DNA of 20,287 nt, from positions 1 to 20,287 of the IMG/VR virus record IMGVR_UViG_3300006802_000793. One strand, given 5' to 3'. The DNA is from a virus. Positions 3,189 to 19,027 of the stretch are shown one piece after another. The position numbers and the translations under genes were made by a program. Below the pieces are notes generated by a model. That model was not told the DNA's origin. It saw nothing but the letters and a program-made list of their open reading frames with translations, and made no database searches. How positions within the stretch are numbered: the first letter of the stretch is position 1; every line of letters begins with the position of its first letter.

Positions 3189-4701
3189 GTTTACATGTGA
3201 TCCAAATATATGGAAGGATATCTCCCAAGGAGAAAAACTTGCCATGGAACTTCGTGCATCTGTAGATCCTGCTTATTTTTGGAATGAACCACGTATGGGA
3301 AATTTTCCACTTTTTGAATCCAAGATAGAAATTATGAATGAACTCTGGAAGTTTGATGAAAATGGAAAAAGAATAAACTCTGAATTAATCATGTCATCTG
3401 GTATGAGAGGTGGAAAGACAGCGATGGCAGGACTTGCAGGATTAACTGAAACTTACCGTTTATTAATGATGCAGAATCCTCAAGAATATTACCATCTTGC
3501 TCCAAACACAGAAATTTCAAACATAAATGTAGCAAACTCATTAGAACAGGCAAAAGATACTGTGTTTAGAAAAGTCAAGGAAATGGTAAGTAATAGTCCT
3601 TACTTTGCTGCTCAAGATCCATACTTAACTGCTACCTCTATGAAATTTCCAAAGAATATTGTCTTTAAAGCACTGGGTTCTAACCTAAGTTCTAATGTCG
3701 GAAGAACTGTCAAAAGTTTTGTCGCAGATGAAATTGATACTTATGAAGATCCAGAGGAAGTTTATGACAAACTATCAAAATCCACAGCAAACTTCGCCAA
3801 GTGGAATGAAAATCTTAGAATTGCAATTGGATCTCCTACAGATCCAGGAGGATTTTTACTCTCAAGATTAAACAGAGCAAGAGAAGAGAAATGGAAAGGC
3901 GTAATTACTATATGGAAACCAACTTGGGAATTAAACCCAGAGATTCCTCATGATGAAGAGGCAAGGGCACGTAACCCAATTGCCTATGATAGAGACTTTG
4001 GTGCTATGCCATCTTCAAGAAGAGAAAACCTATTCAATACTCAACTACTTGCAATAATTCAACAAAAATCAATGAATGTACCAAACATATTCTTGGGAAC
4101 ACCTGATTGGAGGGATAGATGGAATTTTACACCTTCACTAGATAAGAGTCTACTTAGAACTGCACCTGATGCAATAGAATATTATATCGGTCTTGATCCT
4201 TCAGTAAAAAATGATGCATTTGGAATATCAGTAGGTTATTTAAGTACCGATGACACTATAAAGATAATTGGATCTACAATACTCACAGCACCAAAAGGAG
4301 AAGAAATTAAGACTTCTGATGCAGAGAAACTTATCTCACCAATATGCCAATTATTGCCGGTTAGAACAATGATATTTGATGTTTACATGCATACACAACT
4401 TCATGATATAGCAGAAGATAATGGAGTGAAAATAGCACAACATAACCTCAATTTACATGATTGGATATACTTTAGAAATGACCTTTATGATTCAAAATCA
4501 TCAATACCATATTCTGAATATCTGTTCAAAGAGTTTAGAGAACTTTTAGTTTTACATGGAAAAAAGGTTGATCACCCAAGAAGTGGTTCAAAAGACCAAG
4601 CAGACTCTGCAGCCCAAATTGTTTCTTTTATTAGAAGGGAACAGGAGGAAGCAAGATTAAAAAACAACGACATGGTTACAAATTTTGTAGTTCGATTCTA
4701 G
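3172..4701 (+). CDS. terL: Terminase large subunit (packaging ATPase-nuclease)
   Basis: This is the motor that cuts concatemeric viral DNA and pumps it through the portal. The 509-aa length is normal for the family. The ATPase domain shows a Walker A-like loop SSGMRGGKT (75-83) and a Walker B FVADE (183-187) with the catalytic glutamate. The SPTDPGG segment (221-227) fits the coupling motif. The RNase H-like nuclease domain follows: GLDPS with D342 and a glycine-rich strand, IFDVY with D403, and KDQADSA with D475/D478. The gene overlaps the upstream gene by 17 bases and ends 4 bases before the portal gene. The start at 3172 gives the residues expected before the adenine-binding region. Confidence 0.95.
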   Translation: MITKLEFTCDPNIWKDISQGEKLAMELRASVDPAYFWNEPRMGNFPLFESKIEIMNELWKFDENGKRINSELIMSSGMRGGKTAMAGLAGLTETYRLLMMQNPQEYYHLAPNTEISNINVANSLEQAKDTVFRKVKEMVSNSPYFAAQDPYLTATSMKFPKNIVFKALGSNLSSNVGRTVKSFVADEIDTYEDPEEVYDKLSKSTANFAKWNENLRIAIGSPTDPGGFLLSRLNRAREEKWKGVITIWKPTWELNPEIPHDEEARARNPIAYDRDFGAMPSSRRENLFNTQLLAIIQQKSMNVPNIFLGTPDWRDRWNFTPSLDKSLLRTAPDAIEYYIGLDPSVKNDAFGISVGYLSTDDTIKIIGSTILTAPKGEEIKTSDAEKLISPICQLLPVRTMIFDVYMHTQLHDIAEDNGVKIAQHNLNLHDWIYFRNDLYDSKSSIPYSEYLFKEFRELLVLHGKKVDHPRSGSKDQADSAAQIVSFIRREQEEARLKNNDMVTNFVVRF

Positions 4702-4705
4702 AGAC

Positions 4706-6256
4706 ATGGGAATATTTGACTTTATAACAAGAGCATCGGAAAGTAAGAACACTGCAGTAAGAAGTGATCCTATTGATACAACTGCACAAATCACTGATCC
4801 TCCAATATCACTTCCAGCAAACATTATTGGTGGTAGGATGGTTGACTTTCAGAATACACGAAGGAATAGATATTCATTAGCAGATAGTCTTTATGCTTCA
4901 GATGAACGTCTTTGGTCTGCGATTGAACTTATGGCTATTATGATTAGCAAATCAATCGGTGATGTTTCAATCTCAGTAAGGGATGACGGTGATGGCGTAT
5001 TATCAAATGAGGAAAAGAATGCAATAAAGGAAGGACAAAACTTTGCAAAGACATTAAAACTAAAGAAATTATTTTACAGATACACAATTGATTTATTCAA
5101 ATACGGAGATGCTGTAGATCTCATTAAATTCAACTCAAAGGGAATTATTGGACTTCAGCCATTACCAATGATGCATGTAACTGCAGTTGATAGACGTAGT
5201 CAGATTAATCAAGCACTAAACTTTGGCGAACCAATGATTCAAGATCCAAAGTTCTATGTTGTAGATGAGGGAATGACTCATCCAGATATCAAAGACCAAA
5301 TTTACAGAAAGGAACGTATCCTTCACATATCATTCAACCCAGAAAGAAACCTAATCAGAGATAACAAAGGTCGTTGGACAATGTCAGTATGGTCTGATGC
5401 ACCTATCAACTCACTAATTGCAATACTTGAATGGAAACAGAACTTAATCCGTAACGATATGATTTGGTCTAACAGAGCACTTCCAAGAGAACACCACAAG
5501 TTAGACCTCTCACAATACTCTATGGACAGATTCCCAGGAAACTTTGCAGAAAAACAGACAGCAGCATTACTTGCAGGACAAAAAGCAATACAGGATTATA
5601 ACGATAATGTGAATAAACGAAGAGAAGCAGATCAAGGATTCATTTCCTCAAAATCTGTAGAGATTGAATATGTAGAACCAAAGACCACAAACTGGCTTGA
5701 TCCATCTGCAAAGATTGATCAAATCAACCAATTGATTGGTGGACCTACAGGTACTCCTAGTGCACTTATGGGTGGAGAATCCAAAGGATTTACCTCTGTA
5801 ATTCACAGTAGTTCATTCTTAGCACTTAGAGCAGAAATCTATGCAGGAATTATTCAAGACAAACTAGAAGAATTAATGAAACGTCACGTAGGTATTGCAA
5901 GACCTGGAATTCGTAAGACTGTAGTTGATAGACTTTACATTAAGAACAGATTAATCTTAGACAGAGACAGAGCAGAACTTGCAAGAATGATCAGTGTATT
6001 AGATGATACTGGTAAGTTTACTCCAGATGAAATAAGAGCAATATGGGGATTAGAACCACTAACTGAAACTCAAAAGAAACAGATTAAGGAATTTAATAAG
6101 ATGGTGGAATCATCAAAACCAAAGGGATTATCAAGCACTCAGGAGGACTTATTAAGAAAAAAATCTGATAGTCCAACAGGAGGTCAAGAGTCTCAAGGTA
6201 AACGTGACAACGACCAAAATCAAATAGGAGATGACAGAGGAAAAGCACCAATTTAG
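4706..6256 (+). CDS. Portal protein
   Basis: The portal is the dodecameric ring at one capsid vertex through which DNA enters and leaves. This 516-aa protein follows the large terminase with a 4-base gap, the classic position. It has the expected layout: a short polar N-terminus, then the helical SLADSLYASDERLWSAIE region (about 57-74) typical of portals, a central mixed domain with IIGLQPLPMMHV (about 146-157), a segment around VEYVEPKTTNWLD, GGPTGTPSALMGGE (about 348-361), a helical clip/crown part, and a hydrophilic Lys/Gln/Asp-rich tail after about residue 465. It overlaps the next gene by 26 bases. Family membership is inferred from position and these sequence features. Confidence 0.85.
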   Translation: MGIFDFITRASESKNTAVRSDPIDTTAQITDPPISLPANIIGGRMVDFQNTRRNRYSLADSLYASDERLWSAIELMAIMISKSIGDVSISVRDDGDGVLSNEEKNAIKEGQNFAKTLKLKKLFYRYTIDLFKYGDAVDLIKFNSKGIIGLQPLPMMHVTAVDRRSQINQALNFGEPMIQDPKFYVVDEGMTHPDIKDQIYRKERILHISFNPERNLIRDNKGRWTMSVWSDAPINSLIAILEWKQNLIRNDMIWSNRALPREHHKLDLSQYSMDRFPGNFAEKQTAALLAGQKAIQDYNDNVNKRREADQGFISSKSVEIEYVEPKTTNWLDPSAKIDQINQLIGGPTGTPSALMGGESKGFTSVIHSSSFLALRAEIYAGIIQDKLEELMKRHVGIARPGIRKTVVDRLYIKNRLILDRDRAELARMISVLDDTGKFTPDEIRAIWGLEPLTETQKKQIKEFNKMVESSKPKGLSSTQEDLLRKKSDSPTGGQESQGKRDNDQNQIGDDRGKAPI

Positions 6257-6479
6257 CAGAGAAGAGTTACATAGAATACTCAATACCCTAGGTCAATCCT
6301 CTTTAATGTCAGAAGAGAAGGATGCAGTTGGTAGATGTTTAGCAAGTAAAAAGAAAAAAGGTATGGTAATTGATGATCAGGCAATAGCAATATGTATAGA
6401 AGAATCAAAAAACAAACATCATTATGACAAGACTAATATGCCTACAAAGAAAGATGATAAACCTGTGGTTAGAATTTGA
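6231..6479 (+). CDS. Small helical protein of the head gene cluster
   Basis: This 82-aa charged, helical protein starts inside the end of the portal gene (26-base overlap) and ends in the start of the next. Its centre has a Lys-rich CLASKKKKG followed by IDDQAIAICIEESKNK. A Cys-then-Ala-Ile-Ala-Ile-Cys helix of this kind recurs in small phage proteins and in tails of prohead proteases, where the role is unknown. An AGGAG sits directly against the ATG, too close for a normal Shine-Dalgarno, so translational coupling to the portal is more likely. No function is assigned. Confidence 0.65.
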   Translation: MTEEKHQFSREELHRILNTLGQSSLMSEEKDAVGRCLASKKKKGMVIDDQAIAICIEESKNKHHYDKTNMPTKKDDKPVVRI

Positions 6480-6784
6480 CCAATTTAAACGATAAAATTA
6501 AAATCATATACAAGGATAGACCGTTAGAAGAGAACAGAATAGACATATCCACAACTCAGGAGGTTGTAGTTATGGATTTGACTGTACTCAATAACTCTGA
6601 TGTACTTTTAAAGAATATGAAGTTTGATTTTCCTGCAGGTATTGATGTTGTAGAACCAAAAATATTACCAGAGAGAATGATTCCAGGTCAGGAAGTAGAA
6701 CTTACAATAAAGATAGATACATCAATAACAAGAACTTTGACTGTTGAGGTTGAAGGTGGATTTTTACATATTTTAGCTAGATAG
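6476..6784 (+). CDS. Ig-like beta-sandwich protein (putative structural)
   Basis: The start is a TTG at 6476 that overlaps the preceding TGA stop (TTGA). The 102-aa product has strand-forming repeats and phrases typical of Ig-like or CARDB/NEW3-type domains: VVVMDLTVLNNSDVLLKNMKF, a PAGIDVVEPK turn, then RMIPGQEVELTIKID. Such folds are common on virion surfaces and in archaeal cell-surface proteins. An in-frame ATG at 6572 is preceded by an AGGAGG, so a shorter 70-aa product is conceivable. There is no signal peptide, consistent with a virion rather than secreted protein. Confidence 0.6.
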   Translation: MTNLNDKIKIIYKDRPLEENRIDISTTQEVVVMDLTVLNNSDVLLKNMKFDFPAGIDVVEPKILPERMIPGQEVELTIKIDTSITRTLTVEVEGGFLHILAR

Positions 6785-6785
6785 G

Positions 6786-6793
6786 TTTTTATT
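6786..6793 (+). promoter_or_regulatory. TATA-like box before 6820
   Basis: TTTTTATT is centred about 30 nt before the TTG start at 6820, in the 35-base gap after a TAG stop. It supports a new transcript start within the cluster and initiation at the TTG. Confidence 0.5.
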
Positions 6794-6819
6794 CAGTTTA
6801 ACTTACTAACATTATTATC

Positions 6820-7635
6820 TTGAGATTACTTAATGTAAAGAAAGAAGACATAGAGTATAAAGATGGTATAATGTCTGTAAAGACCGATACAGGTTATACA
6901 GTAAAATTCCCAATGACTCCAATGATTGGACTGTTGGAAAATCTAACAGAAAACCAACAACCAATATTCAATGGCAATGTCCAGTTTGGTGTATTGGAAC
7001 AAGAAGTAAAACCATCTGAAAATAAAATCGGAACACAGCAAGATTTAGATAAATACCTTCGAGCAAGTCCAGTTATTCCAGAAAGTTTGGAATGGGATGA
7101 CTTTCTAGTAGGATTCATTTACTCAGGTAATCCACAAGATCAAGACAACCACAAATGGTTTATGCAATTCAGAAAGAACGGACAGATATTCCAAAGTTAC
7201 ATTTATGCAAATGGAATTGACATCAAAGTACCTGTAACTTCATACTCTTGGAATGATGGTAACTGGCACGGAAGGTTAATGGTAAAGAGAAGTGACTTTG
7301 AAAAACTAATCGAACAACCAGACAATATTGCAGAAATTCATGGAAAGAAATGTGGTGGTTACAAGGAAGGTGATCTATCTTTAATTCCAGATGGATGTGA
7401 AATCTTAGAAGTAAGATACAACATATTCACAAACAAATGGTATGTCTCATTTCTTGGAAAGAAAGACAAAAAACTAGAACCTGATTTGGTGTTGGACAGT
7501 ATATCAGCATCAATACCAATGGAGGCAAAAACAGATAGAGGACACATTAAACCAAAAGTAACACAGAGAATAAAAGTTACAGATATTGCAAACATATTAA
7601 TGATATCTGGAAACCTAACAATCTTAGGCAAATGA
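6820..7635 (+). CDS. Hypothetical protein, 271 aa
   Basis: The frame begins with TTG at 6820 (MRLLNVKKED), which suits the TATA-like box upstream; the first ATG is 17 codons further in. The product is soluble and mixed alpha/beta: an N-terminal strand pair (IEYKDGIMSVKTDTGYTVKF), a middle rich in aromatic residues (KWFMQFRKNGQIFQSYIY, SWNDGNWHGRLMV), a KCGGY...DGCEIL pair of cysteines near residues 178-193, and a C-terminal part with repeated beta strands. There is no signal peptide or membrane helix. Its last four bases overlap the next gene (ATGA). I do not recognise the family; its place between portal and tail-like genes suggests a virion or assembly protein. Confidence 0.7.
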   Translation: MRLLNVKKEDIEYKDGIMSVKTDTGYTVKFPMTPMIGLLENLTENQQPIFNGNVQFGVLEQEVKPSENKIGTQQDLDKYLRASPVIPESLEWDDFLVGFIYSGNPQDQDNHKWFMQFRKNGQIFQSYIYANGIDIKVPVTSYSWNDGNWHGRLMVKRSDFEKLIEQPDNIAEIHGKKCGGYKEGDLSLIPDGCEILEVRYNIFTNKWYVSFLGKKDKKLEPDLVLDSISASIPMEAKTDRGHIKPKVTQRIKVTDIANILMISGNLTILGK

Positions 7636-7994
7636 TTACTTTTGTAGGAATAAAACCAGAAAGATTACTAAAACAAACAGGCAATAATGGGATACCATAT
7701 ATTGAATTTGTTGCTGCTGCATACGGTCATGACTTTTTAGAAGTAGATAGTTTTGAAGAGATACCAAAGGATAAACCAATAATAATATTCTCAGATCATG
7801 GAGAGACAAACATCAGGGATTTTGATTTCCCAGATGATTCTTACTATGTAATTGGTCATGATTGGAGTGAGTTGGATATTGCCGGTCATCAAAGTGTTTA
7901 CATTCCAACTGTAAATACGAAAAGGTTTAGAGCATTATTTGGTAGCCAAGCAGCATCTATAATTGCATGGGAATGTTATGTTAGGAAATTATAA
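7632..7994 (+). CDS. Compact SPOUT-methyltransferase-like protein
   Basis: The C-terminal half of this 120-aa protein reads like the S-adenosylmethionine-binding trefoil knot of SPOUT RNA methyltransferases (TrmL/TrmH type). It has a strand ending YYVIGHDWSELDI (about residues 71-83, compare the GxExxGL loop), then VYIPTVN (about 88-94, the IPM strand), then a helix with SQAASIIAWE (about 104-113, compare LNxSxAxxxxxYE). The N-terminal half has alternating strands and helices, including KPIIIFSDHG. Full SPOUT domains are usually 150 aa or more, so this is a minimal version and may lack activity. It overlaps the upstream gene by ATGA. An RNA-modifying enzyme inside a virion gene block would be unusual. 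The identification is from motif reading only. Confidence 0.5.
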   Translation: MITFVGIKPERLLKQTGNNGIPYIEFVAAAYGHDFLEVDSFEEIPKDKPIIIFSDHGETNIRDFDFPDDSYYVIGHDWSELDIAGHQSVYIPTVNTKRFRALFGSQAASIIAWECYVRKL

Positions 7995-7998
7995 ATAA
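7989..7998 (+). promoter_or_regulatory. TATA box before 8020
   Basis: TTATAAATAA is centred about 26 nt before the ATG at 8020, a textbook leaderless archaeal promoter spacing. It overlaps the stop of the upstream gene and probably drives the 8020-14316 block. Confidence 0.6.
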
Positions 7999-8019
7999 TT
8001 ACTCAGGTATAAAAAAGAC

Positions 8020-8280
8020 ATGACAGAAAAGACAGGAGAATCTGTTAGACTATCTTTGACTACTCCTAATAATTTTTGGGCACTTGACGTTCCCACAATA
8101 ATGGTTATTGGTGATTTTGTTTCTATGACAGTATACTATGAAGGATTAAACCCATCACTTAATTGGGGAATCATTAATACTTTAGAAAACAATGAAGTTC
8201 TTCCTAATGAACAAACATTATCTCAATATATCTCCAATAAAGGTTTAATACAATTGGAGTTGGAGATTAGGGAATTATAA
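8020..8280 (+). CDS. Small hypothetical protein preceding the Cys-rich fibre gene
   Basis: This 86-aa protein starts at the ATG placed 26 nt after a TATA box. It is beta-rich (SVRLSLTTP, FVSMTVYYEGL, LIQLELEIREL at the end), with no cysteine, signal peptide or membrane helix. Its stop codon TAA overlaps the ATG of the 776-aa gene (TAATG), so the two are tightly coupled. It could be a partner or attachment domain of the large protein. The family is not recognised. Confidence 0.65.
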   Translation: MTEKTGESVRLSLTTPNNFWALDVPTIMVIGDFVSMTVYYEGLNPSLNWGIINTLENNEVLPNEQTLSQYISNKGLIQLELEIREL

Positions 8281-10610
8281 TGGCTATTACTACTTCTGCA
8301 GGTGATGGTGTAAGAGTTACTAGTCCTGCTTGGTGTGGGGTTGCAAACTCTGGTACTACTACAACTGCTGTATTAAATGGTAGATGGGCTCTAGGAGCTA
8401 ATCAAAACAACGGTAATACCTGTGCTTGTTTTACTATGCCTTGTCGTGTTGTTGTATTAAGACAAGGTGCTTGTAATCAAGAAATTAGATTTATTACTGC
8501 AGCTTGTGAATGTGCAGGTGCAGATACTACAACAATAACAGTTCACGAACCATGGTGTACAACTCCAACTGCTTGTGATTCTGTTGATATCTCTTACATA
8601 ATTCAAGATGCAGCAACTTTAACTGGTTTATCACTTTTATCAAAAAGAGTTCAAGATTTTGGATCTACTAGATCCTTCAATGTTGGAAATGCAGGTTGTG
8701 CTCCAGCATATGCACTATTTGCTATGGTAAACGGTGTATCTTTGGAAAGTTGTGGTTCAGCTATGGCTAATTGTGTTCCAGATGTTGAAGTAGAAAACAA
8801 TGGTCATTTTATAAACGGTTATGTATCCAACGGTGTGGGAATTAATGGTGGTTACTTTGTATTTGCAAATCAGACTGCAGGTCGTTGTGGGTTTAGAGCA
8901 AACAATGGTGCAATTGTAGATATTTTAGATAATCAAGAATGGAACTCTGTATCAAATCCAGAACATAGAATATTGGGTGCTTGTACTTCTGGTACAATTA
9001 GACTCAAGGATGTATTCGGTACTAGAGAATTTGATTTATCAGCTTCTGGTATTACTTATGAAGACTGGAGAATGCAAGGTCAGGGTGTAGCATGTGATGT
9101 GATAAATGTTGCAGGTGGTGTTACAATAAATAACTTTGAGTTGATTAACATGGGAGCAATTAGAAACATCAACCAAAATACATGTGCAGAAACTATGACA
9201 TTTAAGAATGTAGTATTTGCAGGAAATCCTGGTGATATTATTACAGTACAAGGTGCTTGTTCAAATAACAAAACATTCATCTTACAAAACCCAAAATACA
9301 CAAACTGTCCTCCAACATGTGATATTACATTACTTGGAGCTGCATCAAGTGTCCAAGAACAGTTCATCCAAACAGTAACAGTTCAGAATCCTGACGGTAC
9401 TAAGATTAATAACTCTGTATTAAATCACATATCAACAAGATGTGCTACAGCAGCGATTAGAGTAACCACAACTTCGAATTCATGTGGTATTGCAACACTT
9501 AATACAGAACAGCGTAGGTGGACTGGTGTTTGTGAAACATTGGCAACTTCAACTGCCCATGGATTACAAGTTCATAATTATTCATGTGAGTCATTTGCAA
9601 CTTTACCATCATTGACAAACAAGACAGGTGGATTTGGTCAGTGTTTGACAGTTGCAGTTTGTAATGACTCTTATGTAGTTGAGGCAACAGAGGCAACTGC
9701 ACTTTCAGATGGATCTACAAAGATAACAATATGTGGACCAGTAGCAACACCTCATTCCATTATTAAATTTACAGGTGGTTCAGGTACACTTACAGTAGGT
9801 CAGGTTGTAGGAGTATGTAATGGTACTTGTGCTCCAACTGTTTATGGTACGGTTAAAGAATTATCAGAGGGTAATTCTACTGCAGGAACTATAGTACTTA
9901 CTGCAAGAACTGGATCAACATTTTCCGGTACATTACAAGAATATTGTTCTGGTTGTCTTGCAACAAAACTTGACTGGACTGGAACATTTACAACTTCCTC
10001 TCAGACATGTTATACATGGTTAATGTGTGCAGGTCAGATAGGTTGTACTAATAGAACAATGCAGCAATTATATGATAGCAATAAAGCAAAACTACATGAA
10101 TGTCCAATTGACACTGCAGATAATTGGGATGATGTCAAAGTATGGGGTGAATCAGAACACCCACATCCAATAAGAGGAGTTAGTGGAGCTGGAACTGGTT
10201 GTGTTAAATTCAGAACTGTGAGAAATGTTGCAAATACTGAAGGGTGGGTAGTTACAGGATTACTCAATCTAGGTCAAGTTGACAGATTTACTTCTGATAA
10301 CGGTACAGCATTTGTACCACAACAATCATTCAATATCACAGCAAAAGTAACAGATTCTGTATCTCAAAACAATGTAAGATGTGCAGGTGTATGGATAGAG
10401 GAAGTACCAACAGCACTACCAGTAATAGGACAGGGAACAACAAATACATGTGGAGAATTTACTGCATCTTACACAGGTCCATCATGTCAAGCAGCAGAAA
10501 TAGTTGTAAGAAAGAGAGGATATGTCCCAGTCCGTGTTAACATTACAATCAATAGTAATGTAACTGTACCAATTTCACTTACACAATGTTCATCAGGTGA
10601 TACCTTATAA
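8280..10610 (+). CDS. Giant cysteine-rich virion surface protein (fibre-like)
   Basis: This 776-aa protein contains 39 cysteines by my count (5%), spread over its whole length, often as GxC, ACxC or CxxC. The rest is Gly/Thr/Asn/Val-rich beta sequence. About residues 165-345 show rung-like spacing (INGYVSNGVGINGGY, GAIVDIL, GTIRLKDVFG, VINVAGGVTINNF, IITVQGAC), as in right-handed beta-helices of phage fibres. The C-terminus (EIVVRKRGYVPVRVNITI) resembles a small beta-sandwich. There is no signal peptide or transmembrane helix. It begins within the stop of the 86-aa gene and ends in the ATG of a zinc-ribbon gene (TAATG at both junctions). A disulfide-stabilised fibre or capsid-surface protein is the likeliest role; metal binding is an alternative. 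Confidence 0.75.
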   Translation: MAITTSAGDGVRVTSPAWCGVANSGTTTTAVLNGRWALGANQNNGNTCACFTMPCRVVVLRQGACNQEIRFITAACECAGADTTTITVHEPWCTTPTACDSVDISYIIQDAATLTGLSLLSKRVQDFGSTRSFNVGNAGCAPAYALFAMVNGVSLESCGSAMANCVPDVEVENNGHFINGYVSNGVGINGGYFVFANQTAGRCGFRANNGAIVDILDNQEWNSVSNPEHRILGACTSGTIRLKDVFGTREFDLSASGITYEDWRMQGQGVACDVINVAGGVTINNFELINMGAIRNINQNTCAETMTFKNVVFAGNPGDIITVQGACSNNKTFILQNPKYTNCPPTCDITLLGAASSVQEQFIQTVTVQNPDGTKINNSVLNHISTRCATAAIRVTTTSNSCGIATLNTEQRRWTGVCETLATSTAHGLQVHNYSCESFATLPSLTNKTGGFGQCLTVAVCNDSYVVEATEATALSDGSTKITICGPVATPHSIIKFTGGSGTLTVGQVVGVCNGTCAPTVYGTVKELSEGNSTAGTIVLTARTGSTFSGTLQEYCSGCLATKLDWTGTFTTSSQTCYTWLMCAGQIGCTNRTMQQLYDSNKAKLHECPIDTADNWDDVKVWGESEHPHPIRGVSGAGTGCVKFRTVRNVANTEGWVVTGLLNLGQVDRFTSDNGTAFVPQQSFNITAKVTDSVSQNNVRCAGVWIEEVPTALPVIGQGTTNTCGEFTASYTGPSCQAAEIVVRKRGYVPVRVNITINSNVTVPISLTQCSSGDTL

Positions 10611-10855
10611 TGAAATGTATAAACTGTAATTCTCGTGAAGTTGGAGGTATTGTCGGAGACAGAGAATGTGATGATTGTGGAGCTTTTGAAAGAAAAAATG
10701 CAAAAGGTAACATAGAATGGGTATTAGATGGTCAAATTTTACAATGTCAAGTAGAAGAAGATGAAGCAGAGGATGCTGCTAAAAAAGCTAGTGATGATAC
10801 ACAACGTGCCCTCAACTTTTTAAATAGAAAACTACAAGAAGATAACAGAAATTAA
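10610..10855 (+). CDS. Zinc-ribbon protein with coiled-coil tail
   Basis: This 81-aa protein starts with a zinc ribbon: CINC (residues 3-6) and CDDC (20-23), followed by a short strand and CQ near residue 46. The C-terminal half is acidic and helical (EEDEAEDAAKKASDDTQRALNFLNRKL), likely a coiled coil. It is translated from TAATG junctions on both sides, between the two giant structural genes. That placement suggests a small assembly helper (chaperone) or minor component for one of them. Zinc-ribbon plus acidic helix also occurs in transcription-factor-like proteins, so a regulatory role is possible. Confidence 0.65.
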   Translation: MKCINCNSREVGGIVGDRECDDCGAFERKNAKGNIEWVLDGQILQCQVEEDEAEDAAKKASDDTQRALNFLNRKLQEDNRN

Positions 10856-13800
10856 TGGCTACTTCAACTACAATACTTGACAGTTATTATTTTGACTTTA
10901 CAAACACAACCATCTATCACAAAGATCTCGTGTTACCATATGATGGAAACACTGGAACTGCACCATCATTTGGTGATTATGTAAGAGACAGTGTTACTGG
11001 TGCAACTGGTAAGGTTATTGCTGGTACTGATTTAGGAGGTACTGCAGGAACAGGAACCATTACATTAAGCAGAGTAAAAGGTCGTTTTGGTAACAACAAT
11101 CACCTAGATGTCCTAGACACATTAGGTTTTGATACAGTAGATTCTGCAAAAAATGGCTTTGCAAGAGGAGATACAATTGATGAACAAGGTGCAGGTACAG
11201 CACAAATCATAGTTGATGATGTAGAATTCAACTGGCCTGGATTTACAGCAGGAGATGGTATAATTTACGGTAGATTACAAGTTACAGGATTTTTAGATAA
11301 TGATAATTTAGATAACACAACAAGTGGGGAAACCACAGTAGCAATAGTTAATGCAACTGGTGAGACAGACAACTCTGCACTATTTACAACAGCACTAGTA
11401 AACTCTGCTACAGGAGGAACATCCCCAACTATTACAGGTATTATTCACTATGATGCAGGTACAGTGGACATTACTACTGATGCAGATGTATATGCTGGTA
11501 CACAAGATACCGGAACTTTAACCTCTACAGGAACAATCCCATCAGATGGTGATACAGTCACATTAGGTGCAAAGACCTACACATTTAGAACAACATTAAC
11601 TCCTACAGTAAACGAAGTTCTAATCGGTGCAGCAGCAATCAACTCAATAAGAAATCTTGCTTCTGCAATTAACGGTACTGGAACAGAAGGTACTGATTAT
11701 GCTAACGGTACAACACCAAACGTTGATGCAACCGCAGCTATTACTTCAGCAACCACTCTGGTCGCAGAATCAATTAAACCAAATCCAGCAGTAGCTATCG
11801 CATCAGCAGAAACAAGTGCACAACTTTCATGGGGTGCAACTGCCCTTACAGGTGGTGTAGGAAATACTGGTAGAGGAAATAACTATGGTAGAACAAGAAC
11901 ATCAGTTACAGCAACTGGTTCAATTATACTTAACGATATTGACGGATCATTCGCAGATAATGATTCATTATACTTAGACGGTGAACTTGCATATGACAAC
12001 GTTCAAGCAGGTCAGAAATTCAAAGTCGGTGACGTAGTAAAAGGAGGTACTTCTGGTGCAAGAGGTCGTATCATTGCATTACCAACTGGTACTACAATGT
12101 TACTTGCAGAACAAACCGGAAGATTTGAAGACAATGAACAAATACAAACAGTAGCAAGAGATGAATCTACTACCTATGTAGCAGATGCAAACGGTACTGA
12201 TGGACTTACAACTGCTGTTGCAACAATTAATCATCCAAACTCTGCACCATGTCCACGTTTCAGACAATCAGAAGACTTGCAAGGTGGAATTTATGATACT
12301 ACACACTCATTAAATGACTTTAGAAGAAGCAGAAGATTCTTCAACATGGTCATGACTGAATTTGCAAATGACTTCGATAAATTTGATGATAAAATCCCAA
12401 TGGATGGTTCTGTAAAGAACGGTAACTACAGAATGAAGAACTCTTGGTTCCAACCAGATGAAAACTACTATTACTTGACTACTGGTGCATGGACTGATGA
12501 GACTTCAGAAAACATCTTCATTAACCCACAAGTGATTGGTACAATCTTTAGAGTTGATGCAGGAGCATGGGGTAATGCAGAGGTAGCACCACAAATCTAC
12601 TGTTCACAAGACGGAGTTTTAATCGAACCATACTGGTTAGAAGGATACCTTGACATTAACGTAAAAATCAAGACCACAACAAATACAAAGTACACTACTG
12701 CAACTGCAGGAGAAGGTGCAATTATTGATAACGGTCAAATTACAGTGTTCAACAGATTCAAGACTCATACTTATTCTACATCAAGAACAGAAGCAAATGA
12801 TACCGGTGGTGTCGTAACTGTCGCACTTGGTACTCAGGATGACCTCCAAGATGTTACAGAAACACATGACTTTGCATATACCACAGGTTCAGGAACTTGG
12901 AATGCAGGTGAAGAAATTGTTGCAGTAACTGCAGGTGTTGAGAAGGTAGGTGTTGTTGTATCAGCAGATACAGGAGCAACTGGTAACGTTCAATACATAT
13001 TAAAATCTGGAACTAACTTTGCAAACTCTGATGTTGTAACTGGTCAATACTCACAAGTAGCAAAAACAGTTAACGGTGCACCTACAACAGTAGTTGCAGG
13101 ATATTCAGACAAGATTGGATTTGGTACAGTAGATGCTAGATATGATGGTGGAACCACTTCAGGCACTTTCTATGTCGGTGAACCAGTAACTCAAACTGCA
13201 ACTGGTGCTACAGGAATATTCTTGGAAGATGATACTTCTTCAATTTACATTGACGAATTAACTGGAACATTTAACGGTACTGATACAATTACTGGAGACA
13301 ACTCTTCAGCAACATATACTCCAACATCAAGAAACGTTGATACCAATGCACCAAAAGATATTGGTGATGAGGTAGATAATGATTACTCTGTAATTATCGG
13401 AGCAGACAGAACAAACACTGGTTCTGGTAGAACAATCCTTCAAGTATACGAATATCTAAAATATGTAACTGCAAAAGAAGCAGACAGTAGTATCCAACTA
13501 CAAGGTGGTAGAGGTAGTGGAAGTCCTGTACAGGGAAGATTTTACAGAACAGTAGATACTTCTTTCGTAGAAGTTACAGCATCTCCTTATGGCATCATGG
13601 GAGGTCCAGATCTCTTCATTGGTGCACAGTCCGTATTCGTTGAGGATTTGGCTGCAGCAGACATTCAGAAAATTTCACTTACAGATGATGTTGGTACTGG
13701 TGAGACACCTCCAAACCTCCAGACATTAACCTTTGATCAGGTAGCTTCCGGTGATAACCTCAGCGTATTCAGAACTACTACCGGTGAAACAATTGCAACT

Positions 13801-14316
13801 GGTGAATGGTCAGTAGACACTCCAGGTGCTGGACAAAACCAAAGTGCAGATTCAATTATCAATGTAGCTAACGGTTCAGGTGTTGGTGCAAGAACTCTTG
13901 GTGGTGGTACAGACTTGCCAAATGATATTCCAACAACTGGAACTATCAGAGCAGAAGATCCAAACAATGCAGGATTATTCCTCAGCTTCCAATATGATTC
14001 CAGAGTAAAGACTGGAGCAAATGCAGCAGACTTTAACCTATCTACTAACGCTAGACAACCAAACGGTCAAATCGGAGATGTTACTTCTTCAACAGACCTA
14101 GTATCAGGTGACGATGTCCACGTAATGTTGATGCAAAGAACTGCAACTACAACATCAGAGACACAGACCATAGAGCATGTAAGTGATATCAACTTCTTGG
14201 GAGTTCTCAGAAAGAGAGGACTCAATCCATTTAGAGTTACAGGTACTTTCAACGGTACAGCAGGTGCAACAATCACCGCTGTAAGACAAGATGATCCTGT
14301 AGTAGACTTCCTCTAG
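10855..14316 (+). CDS. Giant repeat-containing tail/fibre-type structural protein
   Basis: This 1153-aa protein, the largest here, is made of Gly/Thr/Asp-rich beta modules with only two cysteines. A module of the form GDxV...TGATGxV...GTxxLxxxxGxFxxxdxI recurs near residues 39-86, 391-430, 693-740 and 784-823, a pattern frequent in marine phage tail proteins. About 218-345 holds another common phage module (SDGDTVTLGAKTYTF ... VLIGAAA ... LSWGATALTGG). A conserved-looking non-repeat domain spans about 471-660 and is rich in aromatic residues (SWFQPDENYYYL, PYWLEGYLDINVKI). The C-terminus ends in a compact beta segment. It is coupled to the preceding gene by TAATG. It probably forms a fibre, baseplate or other large external structure. 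Confidence 0.8.
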   Translation: MATSTTILDSYYFDFTNTTIYHKDLVLPYDGNTGTAPSFGDYVRDSVTGATGKVIAGTDLGGTAGTGTITLSRVKGRFGNNNHLDVLDTLGFDTVDSAKNGFARGDTIDEQGAGTAQIIVDDVEFNWPGFTAGDGIIYGRLQVTGFLDNDNLDNTTSGETTVAIVNATGETDNSALFTTALVNSATGGTSPTITGIIHYDAGTVDITTDADVYAGTQDTGTLTSTGTIPSDGDTVTLGAKTYTFRTTLTPTVNEVLIGAAAINSIRNLASAINGTGTEGTDYANGTTPNVDATAAITSATTLVAESIKPNPAVAIASAETSAQLSWGATALTGGVGNTGRGNNYGRTRTSVTATGSIILNDIDGSFADNDSLYLDGELAYDNVQAGQKFKVGDVVKGGTSGARGRIIALPTGTTMLLAEQTGRFEDNEQIQTVARDESTTYVADANGTDGLTTAVATINHPNSAPCPRFRQSEDLQGGIYDTTHSLNDFRRSRRFFNMVMTEFANDFDKFDDKIPMDGSVKNGNYRMKNSWFQPDENYYYLTTGAWTDETSENIFINPQVIGTIFRVDAGAWGNAEVAPQIYCSQDGVLIEPYWLEGYLDINVKIKTTTNTKYTTATAGEGAIIDNGQITVFNRFKTHTYSTSRTEANDTGGVVTVALGTQDDLQDVTETHDFAYTTGSGTWNAGEEIVAVTAGVEKVGVVVSADTGATGNVQYILKSGTNFANSDVVTGQYSQVAKTVNGAPTTVVAGYSDKIGFGTVDARYDGGTTSGTFYVGEPVTQTATGATGIFLEDDTSSIYIDELTGTFNGTDTITGDNSSATYTPTSRNVDTNAPKDIGDEVDNDYSVIIGADRTNTGSGRTILQVYEYLKYVTAKEADSSIQLQGGRGSGSPVQGRFYRTVDTSFVEVTASPYGIMGGPDLFIGAQSVFVEDLAAADIQKISLTDDVGTGETPPNLQTLTFDQVASGDNLSVFRTTTGETIATGEWSVDTPGAGQNQSADSIINVANGSGVGARTLGGGTDLPNDIPTTGTIRAEDPNNAGLFLSFQYDSRVKTGANAADFNLSTNARQPNGQIGDVTSSTDLVSGDDVHVMLMQRTATTTSETQTIEHVSDINFLGVLRKRGLNPFRVTGTFNGTAGATITAVRQDDPVVDFL

Positions 14317-14322
14317 CCAAAA

Positions 14323-14332
14323 TCTATATATC
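14323..14332 (+). promoter_or_regulatory. TATA box before 14356
   Basis: TCTATATATC is centred 28 nt before the TTG start at 14356, in the 39-base gap after the giant gene. It supports leaderless transcription with a TTG first codon. Confidence 0.6.
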
Positions 14333-14355
14333 TTTTCAATACTTTCTACATAGTA

Positions 14356-14931
14356 TTGGCTACACTGACGTTTAATAAACTGGCCAAACAGATCACCGTA
14401 GATGCTCCTGATACCAGTATTACATGTCAAGAGTTAGCTGAGCTTATTAGAGATTATGAGGAAGATTTTGAAAACCATGATATTATTCCCCATATTATCA
14501 ATACTTCCGGTAAAGTCCCAGTACCTGGTGGAACTACTGGTATCGTTATTGAGTTATTAGATAATTGGGAGTTGGCATTTGAAGCTAGAGCTGGTCCATC
14601 TCTTACAGAAGTTGAAGTTACTGGTGGTGTGCTTACAACTACCGGTGGACAGTCACCATTCTTCGAAACAGCATTCACATCACCTACTCGTTCTATAGAC
14701 GTAACTCCTGCACTTCCAGACGTATCAACCATACTAGCTGATCTTACAACAATTAAGGCTGATACATCACTAGCTAGAAAGATTTTACAAAATGATTACC
14801 TTATTGATGAAGTAGCCAATACCTTTACAGTATTTGATGATGATGGAACAACTCCATTGGTTGTATGGGATTTGAAGGATGAGAATGGAAGTCCTGCAGT
14901 AACTGCAATACATGAGAGAAGAAAACAATGA
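14356..14931 (+). CDS. Tail/baseplate-associated protein
   Basis: The 191-aa product starts at TTG (MATLTFNKLAKQITVDAPD), which matches the TATA box at the correct distance. The layout follows a recurrent phage family: an N-terminal ITVDAPDTSITCQELAELIRDYEE (strand then helix), a central GGTTGIVIELLDNWELAFEA (hydrophobic strand with Trp), a TGGVLTTTGGQSPF beta turn, then a helical linker (LADLTTIKADTSLARKIL) and a C-terminal FTVFDDDGTTPLVVWDL ending in ERRKQ. Such proteins are often found beside tail fibre genes. It overlaps the following micro-gene by ATGA. The exact virion position is unknown. Confidence 0.65.
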   Translation: MATLTFNKLAKQITVDAPDTSITCQELAELIRDYEEDFENHDIIPHIINTSGKVPVPGGTTGIVIELLDNWELAFEARAGPSLTEVEVTGGVLTTTGGQSPFFETAFTSPTRSIDVTPALPDVSTILADLTTIKADTSLARKILQNDYLIDEVANTFTVFDDDGTTPLVVWDLKDENGSPAVTAIHERRKQ

Positions 14932-15029
14932 ATTTAGATTTACCAATACTGATAGTAAGTATTGGAATACTTTTGGTAAACATCATCTTCTATGCAAAAA
15001 AATGGAAGGTAGGTGATAAGAGTGGTTGA
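14928..15029 (+). CDS. One-helix membrane micro-protein, 33 aa
   Basis: An ATG inside the previous stop (ATGA at 14928) starts a 33-codon frame ending TGA at 15027-15029. The product begins MNLDLPILIVSIGILLVNII and ends FYAKKWKVGDKSG, a single transmembrane helix (about residues 4-22) followed by a positive tail. Both ends overlap neighbours: 4 bases with the gene before and 17 with the gene after, as for coupled genes. It may be a membrane-active small protein (lysis, entry or assembly), but no family is evident. Confidence 0.6.
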   Translation: MNLDLPILIVSIGILLVNIIFYAKKWKVGDKSG

Positions 15030-15399
15030 TCCCATAGTAACTTTTGGTTATGGACCTGAAAGCAGAAACCTCCCTACATTTGGATATGGTAATTTCATAT
15101 CAGTAATAACTCCTGTAGTAGAAGAGCAACAGGGTGCTACTCCACAGGTAATTCTAAAAAAGACAGTAACATTCATCCGTATAGATATTGATCATGTATA
15201 CGGTAAAAGATTCAAGTTACTTGATGTAGTAATAGGTAAGTTTGCACCGGATACTTCTTCTGTTGACTTAAATATAGAAAAATTCAGAAATGATGCTTTA
15301 GATATAGCAATCCGTCATATTAATATCGAATTAGCCTCTAAACTTAATAGAATAGTCACAGGTAATAGAGACATAAGTGTGAAAACAGAAAATGAGTAA
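15013..15399 (+). CDS. Hypothetical structural protein, 128 aa
   Basis: The best start is GTG at 15013 (MIRVVDPIVT), 17 bases inside the membrane micro-gene. The protein has an N-terminal Gly/Tyr-rich repeat (TFGYGPESRNLPTFGYGNF), a proline-rich turn and a strand-rich middle (QVILKKTVTFIRIDI), then a helical C-terminus (NIEKFRNDALDIAIRHINIELASKL). There are no cysteines or membrane helices. It overlaps the next gene by 8 bases. The family is not recognised; the operon position suggests a minor virion or assembly protein. Confidence 0.6.
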   Translation: MIRVVDPIVTFGYGPESRNLPTFGYGNFISVITPVVEEQQGATPQVILKKTVTFIRIDIDHVYGKRFKLLDVVIGKFAPDTSSVDLNIEKFRNDALDIAIRHINIELASKLNRIVTGNRDISVKTENE

Positions 15400-15784
15400 C
15401 AAAGTATTTCCAGGACAAATAAGAAGCTTTTATGCAAGACTAGCAGCAGAGGATATTGATGCTGTTGACCAATTTAAATTAAAATCTGTTCAATTAGTAA
15501 AACAAGGTAAACCAGTAAAGGTTCTCAAAGCAAAATTTGGTGATGGAACATATACTACTAGCTATATATTTGATAAAAAAGACGAACCAGGAGATTATGA
15601 GGTTCATTGGAATTTTGTATTTAACGGAGATAGGTTGGAACCACAAATTGATTACATTACATTACAGAGAAAACCAAACGTAGAATTTGGCTCTCAAGTA
15701 ACAGAAGAAAAAGTAATCAGGGAAGCTCCAAGCTTAAATGAAGACGATACAATACCTCAAGATGTAAAGGACTTAATGATATGA
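15392..15784 (+). CDS. Beta-sandwich structural protein, 130 aa
   Basis: The first part (FPGQIRSFYARLAAEDIDAVDQFKL) leads into alternating strands with the spacing of an Ig-like or polysaccharide-type beta sandwich: VQLVKQGKPVKVLKAKFGDGTYTTSYIFDKK, then GDYEVHWNFVFNGDRLEPQIDYITLQ. A hydrophilic acidic tail follows (APSLNEDDTIPQDVKDLM). It overlaps both neighbours (8 bases before, 4 after). Such small beta proteins next to the protease and scaffold are commonly neck, decoration or fibre-base components; which one cannot be said. Confidence 0.55.
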   Translation: MSNKVFPGQIRSFYARLAAEDIDAVDQFKLKSVQLVKQGKPVKVLKAKFGDGTYTTSYIFDKKDEPGDYEVHWNFVFNGDRLEPQIDYITLQRKPNVEFGSQVTEEKVIREAPSLNEDDTIPQDVKDLMI

Positions 15785-16815
15785 TATTTAGAAGTAATAA
15801 CCAAGAAGTTGATTTTGTTGTACATGAACATAGTGTAGGAGGCACTATTGACTATCAACTCTCCATACAAGATGGAGATGAATTACGGTTCCTAAGTTTT
15901 CTTAGGACAGGCGAAATGGCTACAATTAGTGATGTACCTAACATTACTAGGCTGTTTGGAAGAGAGTCAGAGGACACCAGAGCACTAACTTGGTTAACTT
16001 ATCAAGGTATGACTAAGAACTCCGAGGGTGGGGATGATGATCCCCACACTCCTGGTGTTTACAAGATTCTGGACAGTGGTAAAGCTATTGTTGGACATCA
16101 AACAGAGGAATACTCTGAAGTATTTCTAAGTGGAGAAAGCCTGTCTGATAGATGGATAATTAGAAAATTACCCAATCTATTTCCTAGTGTGTTCAAAGGT
16201 TCTGATGATATATACCTACTATGGAAACCACCAGTTCAAAAGAAATATGAAAAGGCATTAAATTCAGAAGAACCCTATAACAACATCAACTGTGCATGTC
16301 CTGTAAATAATGCCTCAAGTAAATTTGCAGAACTTACAAAGGAAGAAGGAGTTGCTATGGGTTCAACAATAACAACAGATATGCTGTTTAATCCAGAAGC
16401 AAAAACCTTTGAAGGTGTTGGAGCTGCAGAGGGAACTTGGATTGATATGTTTGGAAACAAATACACTTACACACCAGAATTTATAGTACATAATTACGAA
16501 GAGCAAAGAAGTAGACTTGCTGCAGGTGAAATTATACAAGTTAATACTCATCATGAGACAGAACATGAATTTGAGGGCAGAATTACCGAAGTTCAGTTGT
16601 TTCAGCAACCTATAAAACATATAGTTGTGAAGGGCACATATAACGGACCGGTAGACTTAGATGACAGACAATTTGGACTTTCATATGAATACAGATTACG
16701 ATCTGTTTGGAATGAAGAATTCCAGTCATGGGTTCCGTTTGAAGCTACAACTGACAAGATATCTGTCGTTGAACGACCTGCATGTAAAGTTTGTTGGATA
16801 AACAAGGTGAAATAA
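15781..16815 (+). CDS. Prohead protease fused to a LigD phosphoesterase-like domain
   Basis: This 344-aa protein sits directly before scaffold and capsid genes, the place of the maturation protease, which cuts the scaffold and capsid precursors. The C-terminal part (about 205-340) fits an HK97-type (S78-like) protease: FEGVGAAEGTWIDMFGN, then THHETE (H257/H258 candidate) with GRITEV, a strand IVVKGTYNG, and GLSYEYRL (S301 candidate). The N-terminal 130 residues resemble the 3'-phosphoesterase domain of bacterial/archaeal LigD: FVVHEHSVGGTIDYQLSIQDG (compare the H...HYDxRLE motif), then ILDSGK and FLSGESLSDRWIIRKL. However, the second histidine and the arginine of that motif are absent, so it is probably inactive. 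Cysteines CAC (171-173) and CKVC (335-338) lie between and after. It overlaps its upstream neighbour by ATGA. Both calls are from motif reading. Confidence 0.6.
   Translation: MIFRSNNQEVDFVVHEHSVGGTIDYQLSIQDGDELRFLSFLRTGEMATISDVPNITRLFGRESEDTRALTWLTYQGMTKNSEGGDDDPHTPGVYKILDSGKAIVGHQTEEYSEVFLSGESLSDRWIIRKLPNLFPSVFKGSDDIYLLWKPPVQKKYEKALNSEEPYNNINCACPVNNASSKFAELTKEEGVAMGSTITTDMLFNPEAKTFEGVGAAEGTWIDMFGNKYTYTPEFIVHNYEEQRSRLAAGEIIQVNTHHETEHEFEGRITEVQLFQQPIKHIVVKGTYNGPVDLDDRQFGLSYEYRLRSVWNEEFQSWVPFEATTDKISVVERPACKVCWINKVK
16804..16810 (+). promoter_or_regulatory. Shine-Dalgarno-like site before the scaffold gene
   Basis: AAGGTGA, complementary to the conserved 3' end of archaeal 16S rRNA, ends 10 nt before the ATG at 16821. 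Most genes here lack such a site. It supports ATG 16821 over the upstream in-frame TTG at 16791. Confidence 0.45.
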
Positions 16816-16820
16816 AAAAA

Positions 16821-17450
16821 ATGGCTAAACAAGAAATCCCAGAACAAGTTGTCGATTTTTCTAAATTGACTACTGAGGAAAAGTTAGCTGCATTCAAAGA
16901 AGCCTTGTCACAAGACGAATCATTCAAAAATATCGATCTAGCAAAAGAATTAGGAATTAAAGCACCAGAACAAGTTGATGAAACACAGGTGAAAAACCAA
17001 GAAATCATCAAAGAAACATTACCTCTATACGAAGAAATTCGTGCAAAACTAGCACAAGCTGGTTACAAATTTGAGGAATCAAAAATGTCTGAGGCTGAAT
17101 TGAAAGTAAGAGAAATCACTGAGAAACAATCAAGAGCAATGTTTGCAGATGCTTCTGAAGCAATCACAAATGTTGACAAAGACTTCCCAGTTGAAGTAAT
17201 CGCAAAACTTTCTATCCCAACAGAGGACAAAGTAATCATCGCACAAGCAATGAAGACTGTCGCTGTTAGAAATTCTGAAGCTGTCGAAAAAGTCCAAAAA
17301 GAACTTGATGCTGCAACTGCTGAATTGAAAGATGCAAGACTCGGTGCTCCAAAGCCTGAGGACTCTGAAATTCTAGAGGGTAGCACAAAAGTATCTAATG
17401 CACTCGCTGCATTTGGAATGAAAGATTCTGTTCCAGAAACAAAAGTATAA
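16821..17450 (+). CDS. Capsid scaffold protein
   Basis: This 209-aa protein (MAKQEIPEQVV) is almost wholly helical, acidic and free of cysteine, with heptad-like stretches (for example SEAVEKVQKELDAATAELKDA, about residues 151-171), as expected for a scaffold. It sits between the prohead protease and the decoration/major capsid genes, the standard order. The scaffold organises capsid proteins into the procapsid and is removed by the protease before DNA packaging. The frame is open further upstream to TTG 16791, but that extension overlaps the protease gene and lacks the ribosome site seen before 16821. Called by position, composition and shape. Confidence 0.65.
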   Translation: MAKQEIPEQVVDFSKLTTEEKLAAFKEALSQDESFKNIDLAKELGIKAPEQVDETQVKNQEIIKETLPLYEEIRAKLAQAGYKFEESKMSEAELKVREITEKQSRAMFADASEAITNVDKDFPVEVIAKLSIPTEDKVIIAQAMKTVAVRNSEAVEKVQKELDAATAELKDARLGAPKPEDSEILEGSTKVSNALAAFGMKDSVPETKV

Positions 17451-17456
17451 TAAAAA

Positions 17457-18014
17457 ATGTCACAAATCGCTGGTGGAGGTTTAACTAGAGAACTCGGAGA
17501 GTTTTGGAATATCCAATTATTGGATGCCACTTCTCTTGATGATGCTGGTTATGTACTCACCTATAAAGTGGAATCTTCTACTAACAAAGTTGACCTATGT
17601 GGTGCATCCGATGTACCTGCAGCAGTTAACTTTAGAAGTACAAGAGATCCAGAAGACATGAATGAACACAAAACCCACCTCGTTCTTACCGGTTCAGAGG
17701 TAGGTGCAAAGGGAATTCCTGTCTTCCGTGAAGGTTGGGCTAAACTAAAAGTTGCCACTAACAACACTGCTATCGTCAGAGGAGATTCACTCGTCTGTAC
17801 TGGTAGTGGTAAAGTTGACAAATACACTCCTGCTGCATTAACAGGAACTGATGGTGCTTCAACATTAGCTGCTGAACTCGAAACACGTTTCGATGACTTA
17901 GCAAGACTAGTTGGACACGCAGAAGAAGACGTAGCAGTAGGAAATACTTCAGCTCCTGGAGCCGACAAGGTTCTAACAAAACTCTCAATCCGTGCAATCG
18001 GACTTAATTCATAG
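17457..18014 (+). CDS. Capsid decoration/stabilisation protein
   Basis: This 185-aa protein, placed between the scaffold and the major capsid gene, reads like the decoration family that binds the outer or inner capsid surface. It has KGIPVFREGWAKLKVATNNTAIVRGDSLVC (about residues 85-114), a beta-rich sequence with G-x-P-V and GDxLV turns, then GSGKVDKYTP, LVGHAEEDVAVGNTS and a final VLTKLSIRAIG strand. This order (pV..GwA.v......i..Gd.Lv...G.......vG.A.E......v.v) is typical of the DUF2190-like decoration proteins. It starts 6 bases after the scaffold stop and ends 2 bases before the capsid start. No signal peptide is present, as expected. Confidence 0.7.
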   Translation: MSQIAGGGLTRELGEFWNIQLLDATSLDDAGYVLTYKVESSTNKVDLCGASDVPAAVNFRSTRDPEDMNEHKTHLVLTGSEVGAKGIPVFREGWAKLKVATNNTAIVRGDSLVCTGSGKVDKYTPAALTGTDGASTLAAELETRFDDLARLVGHAEEDVAVGNTSAPGADKVLTKLSIRAIGLNS

Positions 18015-18016
18015 GC

Positions 18017-19027
18017 ATGATTCAAGAAATTAAATCATTTAATGGAGTTCCTGGTGCAGTACCATATGCTACACTTGAAACTCTCAAAAGCTATACTAAG
18101 GAAGATATCGCAAAACTAGGAGAAGCAACATTTGATGAGGTTGTACAATTAACAATTATCAGAGAGAAGATTTACCAAGATTCATCTCTAATGTCTGTCG
18201 GTGAGCAAGTCTCAGTCGTCAAAGCATTAGATAGATTAGAATCACAAATCTTTAGTCCTACTGATGATGCAATTGAGCATACTTATCCACTTCCTCCTGA
18301 AAGCGTAGCACCATCACAAAGAGCAAAACCAGTAACCTACAATGTAAAATCAGTTTCCTTAGATCTTGGTGAAACAAGATACTTCATCTCTGATGAAGCT
18401 AAGATTAGAGGAGCAGCCGAATGGTTAATTCAGGATTCTGCAGCAAGAGCAGCAGAACACATCGCTGAATCTAAAGACAAGCACATCATTAATAACTGGG
18501 ATACCCTAGTTACTGCCGGTAATACAATTACTGCTGGTGGTCCATGGGATGCAGCTTCTGCAACCCCAGAAGATGATGTCGCAAGTGCTGTAGCTGCAAT
18601 CATTGAGAACTCTAACGTATCAACTGCACAAATCAATAGACCTGATGCATTTGCATTAGTTCTACCTGCTGCAGCATTCGTTGGTGTTACAAAACTCAAA
18701 TTGATCAGAAACATCACACAACCAATTCAAGACTTCTTATCAACTGAATACAAAGTAAAGATAATGCTATCAAGAAAACCACAAGTAGAATCTACTTGGC
18801 CGGTTAGTACATCAGCATATGTTGTACCTATCAAAGATAGTGGTATTGGTTTCCTCGGAACATGGGATGGTGGAGGTATCGTACCTGCACAAGAGAGGGT
18901 TAGAGTAGCTGGTCGTGGTGAAGATATCATCACGAAACAGTGGTACAAATGGACAAGTATTCCTTATCCATTTAGTGCAGCAACAACTAACACTAAAGTC
19001 GCAAGAATAGACGGAGTCCTTACATAG
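18017..19027 (+). CDS. Major capsid protein, HK97 fold
   Basis: The 336-aa length, position after scaffold and decoration genes, and sequence layout indicate the HK97-fold shell protein. There is a helical N-terminal part (about 1-75), then a linker, then the P-domain hallmark: a strand (TYNVKSVSLDLGETRYFISDE, about 108-128) followed by a long spine helix (AEWLIQDSAARAAEHIAESKDKHIINNW, about 134-161). The A-domain follows with FALVLPAAAFVGV, then a beta-rich C-terminus with GIGFLGTWDGG and KQWYKWTSIPYPF, a usual ending. The gene begins 2 bases after the decoration stop and is followed by a hairpin and pyrimidine-rich tract, so a transcript probably ends here. It is rich in structural beta sequence and has no cysteines. 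Confidence 0.8.
   Translation: MIQEIKSFNGVPGAVPYATLETLKSYTKEDIAKLGEATFDEVVQLTIIREKIYQDSSLMSVGEQVSVVKALDRLESQIFSPTDDAIEHTYPLPPESVAPSQRAKPVTYNVKSVSLDLGETRYFISDEAKIRGAAEWLIQDSAARAAEHIAESKDKHIINNWDTLVTAGNTITAGGPWDAASATPEDDVASAVAAIIENSNVSTAQINRPDAFALVLPAAAFVGVTKLKLIRNITQPIQDFLSTEYKVKIMLSRKPQVESTWPVSTSAYVVPIKDSGIGFLGTWDGGGIVPAQERVRVAGRGEDIITKQWYKWTSIPYPFSAATTNTKVARIDGVLT

Follow-up and report, generated by a model that had tools for sequence, protein, structure and literature searches.

The window, by which we mean the whole stretch of DNA analyzed, is a 20,287-base virus record. Its head genes are ordered terminase, portal, long insert, 130-aa gene, protease, scaffold-like, decoration-like, and capsid-like. 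The protease gene thus sits between the portal gene and the scaffold and capsid genes, as expected of a prohead protease. An initial annotation of this DNA had called an open reading frame at 15781 to 16815 and quoted stretches of its translation, and both are present exactly. The features of the cluster are as follows.

3172 to 4701, plus strand: terminase large subunit (phrog_17415, E 3.7e-17)
4706 to 6256, plus strand: portal protein (PF04860, E 4e-4)
15392 to 15784, plus strand: 130-aa gene upstream of the protease gene, with a 4-nt overlap
15781 to 16815, plus strand: two-domain prohead protease (LigD-PE-like and S78-like), 344 aa, ATG start
15808 to 16176, plus strand: N-terminal LigD 3'-phosphoesterase (LigD-PE)-like beta-barrel, residues ~10 to 132, catalytic residues lost
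16177 to 16350, plus strand: inter-domain segment, residues ~133 to 190, with an invariant WKP and a CxC motif
16351 to 16812, plus strand: C-terminal prohead-protease domain, residues ~191 to 344
16821 to 17450, plus strand: scaffold-like protein, helical and acidic, with an ATG at 16821, assigned by position and composition
17457 to 18014, plus strand: decoration-like protein, a putative assignment from its position in the gene order
18017 to 19027, plus strand: major-capsid-like protein, with weak matches to PHROG head proteins (E 0.07 to 0.11)

The major-capsid-like protein is strongly conserved among the relatives described below. The long insert, at 6260 to 15390, separates portal from protease by ~9 kb of genes, among them genes for proteins of 776 and 1153 aa; in relatives such as contig L012 this gap is just ~0.5 kb. 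The 776-aa protein (8280 to 10610) is unusually cysteine rich by eye and repeat-like in sequence. A small gene 3' of the portal gene (6231 to 6479) carries the motif RCLASKKKKGMVIDDQAIAICIEESK, and a similar motif occurs both within the protease fusion of contig L006 and in the gene that precedes the protease in L012. From these three different placements, the motif appears to be mobile within the head cluster. Outside the cluster, a 302-aa protein (884 to 1792) has the look of a calcineurin-type phosphoesterase (YSDIHVGS) with altered later motifs (GEPID, RGSGYH). It has no Pfam match and is possibly another degenerate phosphoesterase, judging by these motifs.

Searching viral contigs with protein and profile queries recovered relatives of the two-domain protein in L001, L004, L005, L006, L012, and the pair L020/L024, at 38 to 56% identity to the window protein; L012 stands for itself and four identically scoring contigs, L013 to L016. 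It had been asked earlier whether the fusion of the two domains is conserved among viral homologues, and it is kept in every relative that we found. When the C-terminal domain alone was the query, 11 viral contigs were recovered, every one of which also had the N-terminal domain. Thus, with the window counted, the PE-like domain is fused to the protease in 12 of 12 contigs, representing about seven distinct lineages. Further contigs came from terminase and portal searches; those that lacked the protease were shorter than 10 kb, which is not long enough to demonstrate that the gene is absent. Searches of genome contigs by protease and by portal confirmed no provirus relatives. By the Nei-Gojobori method, dN/dS of the N-terminal domain was ~0.06 for L020/L024 and ~0.22 for L001/L005. 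Therefore, the domain is not decaying and is under purifying selection.

The protein encoded by L006 (7224 to 8924) is 567 aa long: a homologue of the upstream 130-aa protein and a spacer rich in cysteine (CQNCMHY...C...C) are fused in frame ahead of the PE-protease. That these parts are fused in L006 suggests that the 130-aa protein, the cysteine-rich spacer, and the PE-protease function together. L012 encodes the cysteine-rich part separately, in an upstream gene (7505 to 8035).

We modeled the full-length protein with AlphaFold2 from eight sequences. The model was of moderate confidence (mean pLDDT 74, pTM 0.51); pLDDT blocks in the N-terminal domain were mostly 82 to 91, with dips to 52 to 68 near residues 41 to 60 and 81 to 90. 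The initial annotation had likened this domain to LigD-PE, and the fold search of the PDB returned LigD-PE and nothing else significant. The six best Foldseek matches were all LigD-PE, including 3p43, 3n9b, 3p4h, 3n9d, and 5dmp (E 3e-6 to 7e-5, probability 1.00), and the seventh match had an E value of 0.036. Target-normalized TM scores against the archaeal LigD-PE structures 3p43 and 3p4h were 0.81 to 0.82.

Sequence profiles gave the same answer. A profile of the eight N-terminal domains, compared with 177,635 PDB sequences, had as its sole match the archaeal LigD-PE 3p4h (E 0.021), which aligned over nearly the full length. Aligned by hhalign to seven LigD-PE sequences, the profile scored 41.0 (probability 91, E 1.1e-6). 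As controls, 200 column shuffles gave a mean of 11.5, a standard deviation of 2.5, and a maximum of 22.8; the reversed profile scored 12.5 and a profile of the protease domain scored 14.6. Because the score of 41.0 lies well above the shuffle maximum, the resemblance to LigD-PE exceeds chance, in agreement with the earlier suggestion. Single sequences gave weaker signals. The Pfam family LigD_N (PF13298) matched two homologues weakly; it was the only Pfam match of the L001 protein (E 0.011), as TIGR02777 (LigD_PE_dom) was its only NCBIfam match (E 0.034). Neither match of L001 reached the curated cut-off (16.3 of 31.1 bits for PF13298 and 13.9 of 144 bits for TIGR02777), and none of the eight members reached the gathering cut-off of LigD_N. 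The window protein alone matched no Pfam or NCBIfam family and had only weak PHROG matches, of unknown function; a single-sequence phmmer search of the PDB with it returned chance matches only. Together, the predicted structure and the sequence profiles show residues ~10 to 132 to have the LigD-PE fold, either by descent from that family or at least by sharing its fold.

In LigD, manganese is bound by His42, His48, and Asp50, phosphate is held by Arg52, His84, and Tyr88, and Gln40 lines the site (PMC8656161). We mapped these residues onto the eight viral sequences through a sequence-profile alignment of low identity. The metal ligands are replaced: the His42 position reads HFHIHFVV (His in three of the eight), the His48 position reads D-D-SSKK, and the Asp50 position reads QQQQEQFF. 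The Arg52 position reads SSSSGSNN. Not one of the eight homologues keeps the His42/His48/Asp50 triad or Arg52. The Gln40, His84, and Tyr88 positions are instead occupied throughout by histidine (HHHHHHHH), arginine (RRRRRRRR), and tryptophan (WWWWWWWW), which in the window are the following residues.

15823 to 15825, plus strand: His15, at the Gln40 position of LigD, invariant in 8 of 8
15979 to 15981, plus strand: Arg67, at the position of the catalytic His84 of LigD, invariant in 8 of 8
15991 to 15993, plus strand: Trp71, at the Tyr88 position of LigD, invariant in 8 of 8

By this alignment, the metal site is lost, and the former pocket has new residues at three positions, none of which varies among the eight sequences. 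The second histidine and the arginine of the LigD motif had been reported missing. They are indeed missing, but they are not the only ones; the whole metal triad, Arg52, His84, and Tyr88 are all unkept. The loss of activity that had been thought likely is in keeping with the absence of the catalytic residues from 8 of 8 sequences. With the metal-binding and phosphate-stabilizing residues lost, we infer that processing of DNA 3' ends by this domain is very unlikely.

The C-terminal part had been described as an HK97-type protease. Modeled alone (mean pLDDT 68), this domain matches viral prohead proteases in BFVD, with 32 matches at E<=1e-3 and probability 1.00, in a comparison that has predicted models on both sides. 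Many of the matched proteins are named prohead protease, head maturation protease, or DUF2213, and the full-length model finds matches of the same kind. For the catalytic residues, the initial annotation had offered His257 or His258 together with Ser301. His258 and Ser301 are invariant in our alignment; His257 is not conserved among the eight sequences, and we reject it.

16552 to 16554, plus strand: His258, candidate catalytic histidine, invariant in 8 of 8
16681 to 16683, plus strand: Ser301, candidate catalytic serine (GLSxE), invariant in 8 of 8

Gly266, Glu303, and Arg307 are also invariant in this domain. The Pfam S78 families PF04586 and PF14550 matched none of the eight members, so the case for a prohead protease is made by fold, residues, and gene position. 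On these three grounds, the domain is an HK97/S78-like Ser/His protease, presumably an active one. In the segment between the domains, residues 167 to 180 are poorly predicted (pLDDT <50), and the CxC motif is absent from L001 and L005. The C terminus of the protease (16774 to 16812) is a nearly invariant PACK(I/V)CWI tail with a CxxC.

We conclude that the gene encodes a prohead protease, that the virus is tailed and probably infects archaea, and that the N-terminal domain of the protease is, as the most likely reading, a noncatalytic docking module. Prohead proteases are incorporated in the prohead, where they cleave the scaffold and the capsid protein, and a propeptide of the protease gp245 of phage SPN3US has been proposed to target it to the core (PMC7411985). 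It is by analogy with such propeptides, which target other prohead proteases, that we propose a docking or targeting role here. The PE-like domain would target the protease to the prohead core or dock it there, through contacts with the scaffold, the portal, or the overlapping 130-aa neighbor, and may be removed or released once the protease fires.

An unlikely alternative, although the best of those that we weighed, is that the domain is a nucleic-acid-binding module, in which the DNA-end groove of LigD-PE survives the loss of catalysis and serves either to anchor the protease to core or packaged nucleic acid or to sense the entry of DNA. DNA ends are the substrate of the parent fold (PMC8656161), and the invariant His15, Arg67, and Trp71 occupy the Gln40, His84, and Tyr88 sites of the old pocket. 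However, the domain has lost Arg52 together with the metal ligands. The charge of the domain speaks both ways: its pI is 9.6 in two members, which could suit DNA binding, but 4.6 to 5.2 in the other six of the eight. With N-terminal charge this variable, a conserved basic DNA-binding surface is unsupported, and since charge is not conserved, neither a strict DNA-binding surface nor a strict acidic docking surface fits. Moreover, prohead proteases do their work before DNA is packaged.

We think it rather unlikely that the domain is a simple inhibitory prodomain, cut off at prohead assembly, whose PE ancestry is incidental. Some prohead proteases, SPN3US gp245 among them, are made as self-cutting precursors (PMC7411985), and the poorly predicted segment between the domains of our protein could hold a cleavage site. 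However, no such site was identified, and the SPN3US precedent is a 64-residue C-terminal propeptide rather than a conserved, folded N-terminal domain. More doubtful still is the idea that the remodeled pocket of His15, Arg67, and Trp71 is a binding site for a phosphate, a DNA end, or a peptide carboxylate, through which the firing of the protease would be tied to a step of assembly or packaging. If it were true, a DNA-repair active site would have been turned into a sensor of capsid maturation.

It is very improbable that the domain is an active enzyme with a remodeled site (built, for example, of His15, Asp51, and Arg67) and a new substrate: the polar residues His15, Asp51, Arg67, Tyr94, and Arg128 are invariant, but they may be structural, the domain has neither the canonical metal ligands nor the Arg52 that binds phosphate, and no metal site was identified. 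We give just as little credence to convergence, that is, to a generic beta-barrel that merely resembles PE; the structural alignments have only 14 to 18% sequence identity and the single-sequence matches fall under curated cut-offs, but the fold search was exclusive to LigD-PE, with an ~500-fold gap in E value to the next match, and independent sequence profiles indicate the same family.

The proposed docking module can be compared with LigD-PE in other settings. The viral domain has in common with LigD 3'-phosphoesterases (PF13298, TIGR02777; 3p4h, 3p43, 3n9b, 5dmp) the fold, the strand order, and the framework FVVxEH...FEG...D.G...L.G.W.L. In LigD, the partner of this domain is a ligase or polymerase, whereas the viral domain has a protease as partner and does not keep the set of His42, His48, Asp50, Arg52, His84, and Tyr88. 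With the prohead proteases of tailed viruses (S78/U35-like, XkdF, and DUF2213 groups), the window protein shares the C-terminal fold, the invariant His and Ser, and a place upstream of the scaffold and capsid genes. Unlike them, it adds the PE-like domain and the conserved PACK(I/V)CWI tail, and it has no Pfam S78 match. The best viral fold match of the full-length model is BFVD A0A6J7WT14, a 602-aa prohead protease of an uncultured Caudovirales phage. The alignment, of 365 columns, is long enough to span both domains of the window protein, and by this comparison of models A0A6J7WT14 may share the two-domain plan.

Among named viruses, the nearest relative of the N-terminal domain is in ANMV-1 (KP703175), a virus of an uncultured methane-seep archaeon. 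Its 866-aa protein AJP62006.1, annotated as an ATP-dependent DNA ligase, has a region that matches the viral N-domain profile (E 3e-8 / 6.9e-7), and its gene directly follows the portal gene. There the PE-like region is joined to a ligase adenylation domain (PF01068) and not to a protease. We considered whether this ligase might be the protease of ANMV-1 itself and rejected the idea, because that virus has a separate DUF2213 protease. The ligase (L003:3200-5797, KP703175.1) has a nucleotidyltransferase-like N-terminal stretch, the adenylation domain, and one PE-like region; hmmsearch counted two domains, and a second degenerate PE-like region is possibly present at the C terminus. No relatives of the ligase were found in viral contigs. 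Against named phages, a tblastn search with LigD-PE (the 3p4h segment) gave no match, and the PE domains or whole proteins of the other homologues gave nothing meaningful. The ANMV-1 case suggests that PE-like domains may circulate in the head clusters of archaeal viruses and that, in the lineage of the window, one may have come to be fused with the protease. The thaumarchaeal proviruses Nvie-Pro1, NCAV2-Pro1, and CalSub-Pro are also archaeal head-tail elements with variable protease architecture; their protease is either fused to the capsid protein or stand-alone, and the available part of the report on them mentions no PE-like domain (PMC6563490).

The contigs of the relatives, up to 55 to 74 kb long, encode a family B DNA polymerase, a HerA-like ATPase, an ERCC4-HHH nuclease, a tail tube, and a tape measure. 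We conclude that the virus is tailed, with archaeal-type replication genes, and that its host is probably an archaeon. A search for the host marker AmoC gave no match, nor did its controls. The contigs also encode the preQ0 genes QueC, QueE, and FolE, which we observed in L046, L051, and L052 (in L052 by the look of the sequence only). This gene content suggests 7-deazaguanine DNA modification in these three relatives.

Prohead proteases need to be placed within the shell and activated in time, and the mode of targeting is known for few viruses. In our coverage of the literature, which is incomplete, LigD and prohead proteases were linked by nothing beyond single word mentions. Here, virus head assembly seems to have put a DNA-end-processing fold to new use, and the fusion clearly exemplifies the recruitment of a domain from a repair enzyme into the building of virions. 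The ANMV-1 ligase gene beside the portal gene hints at a route of recruitment in archaeal viruses. The conserved fusion of the protease to a retired DNA-end-processing fold thus offers a discrete, testable targeting or regulatory module.
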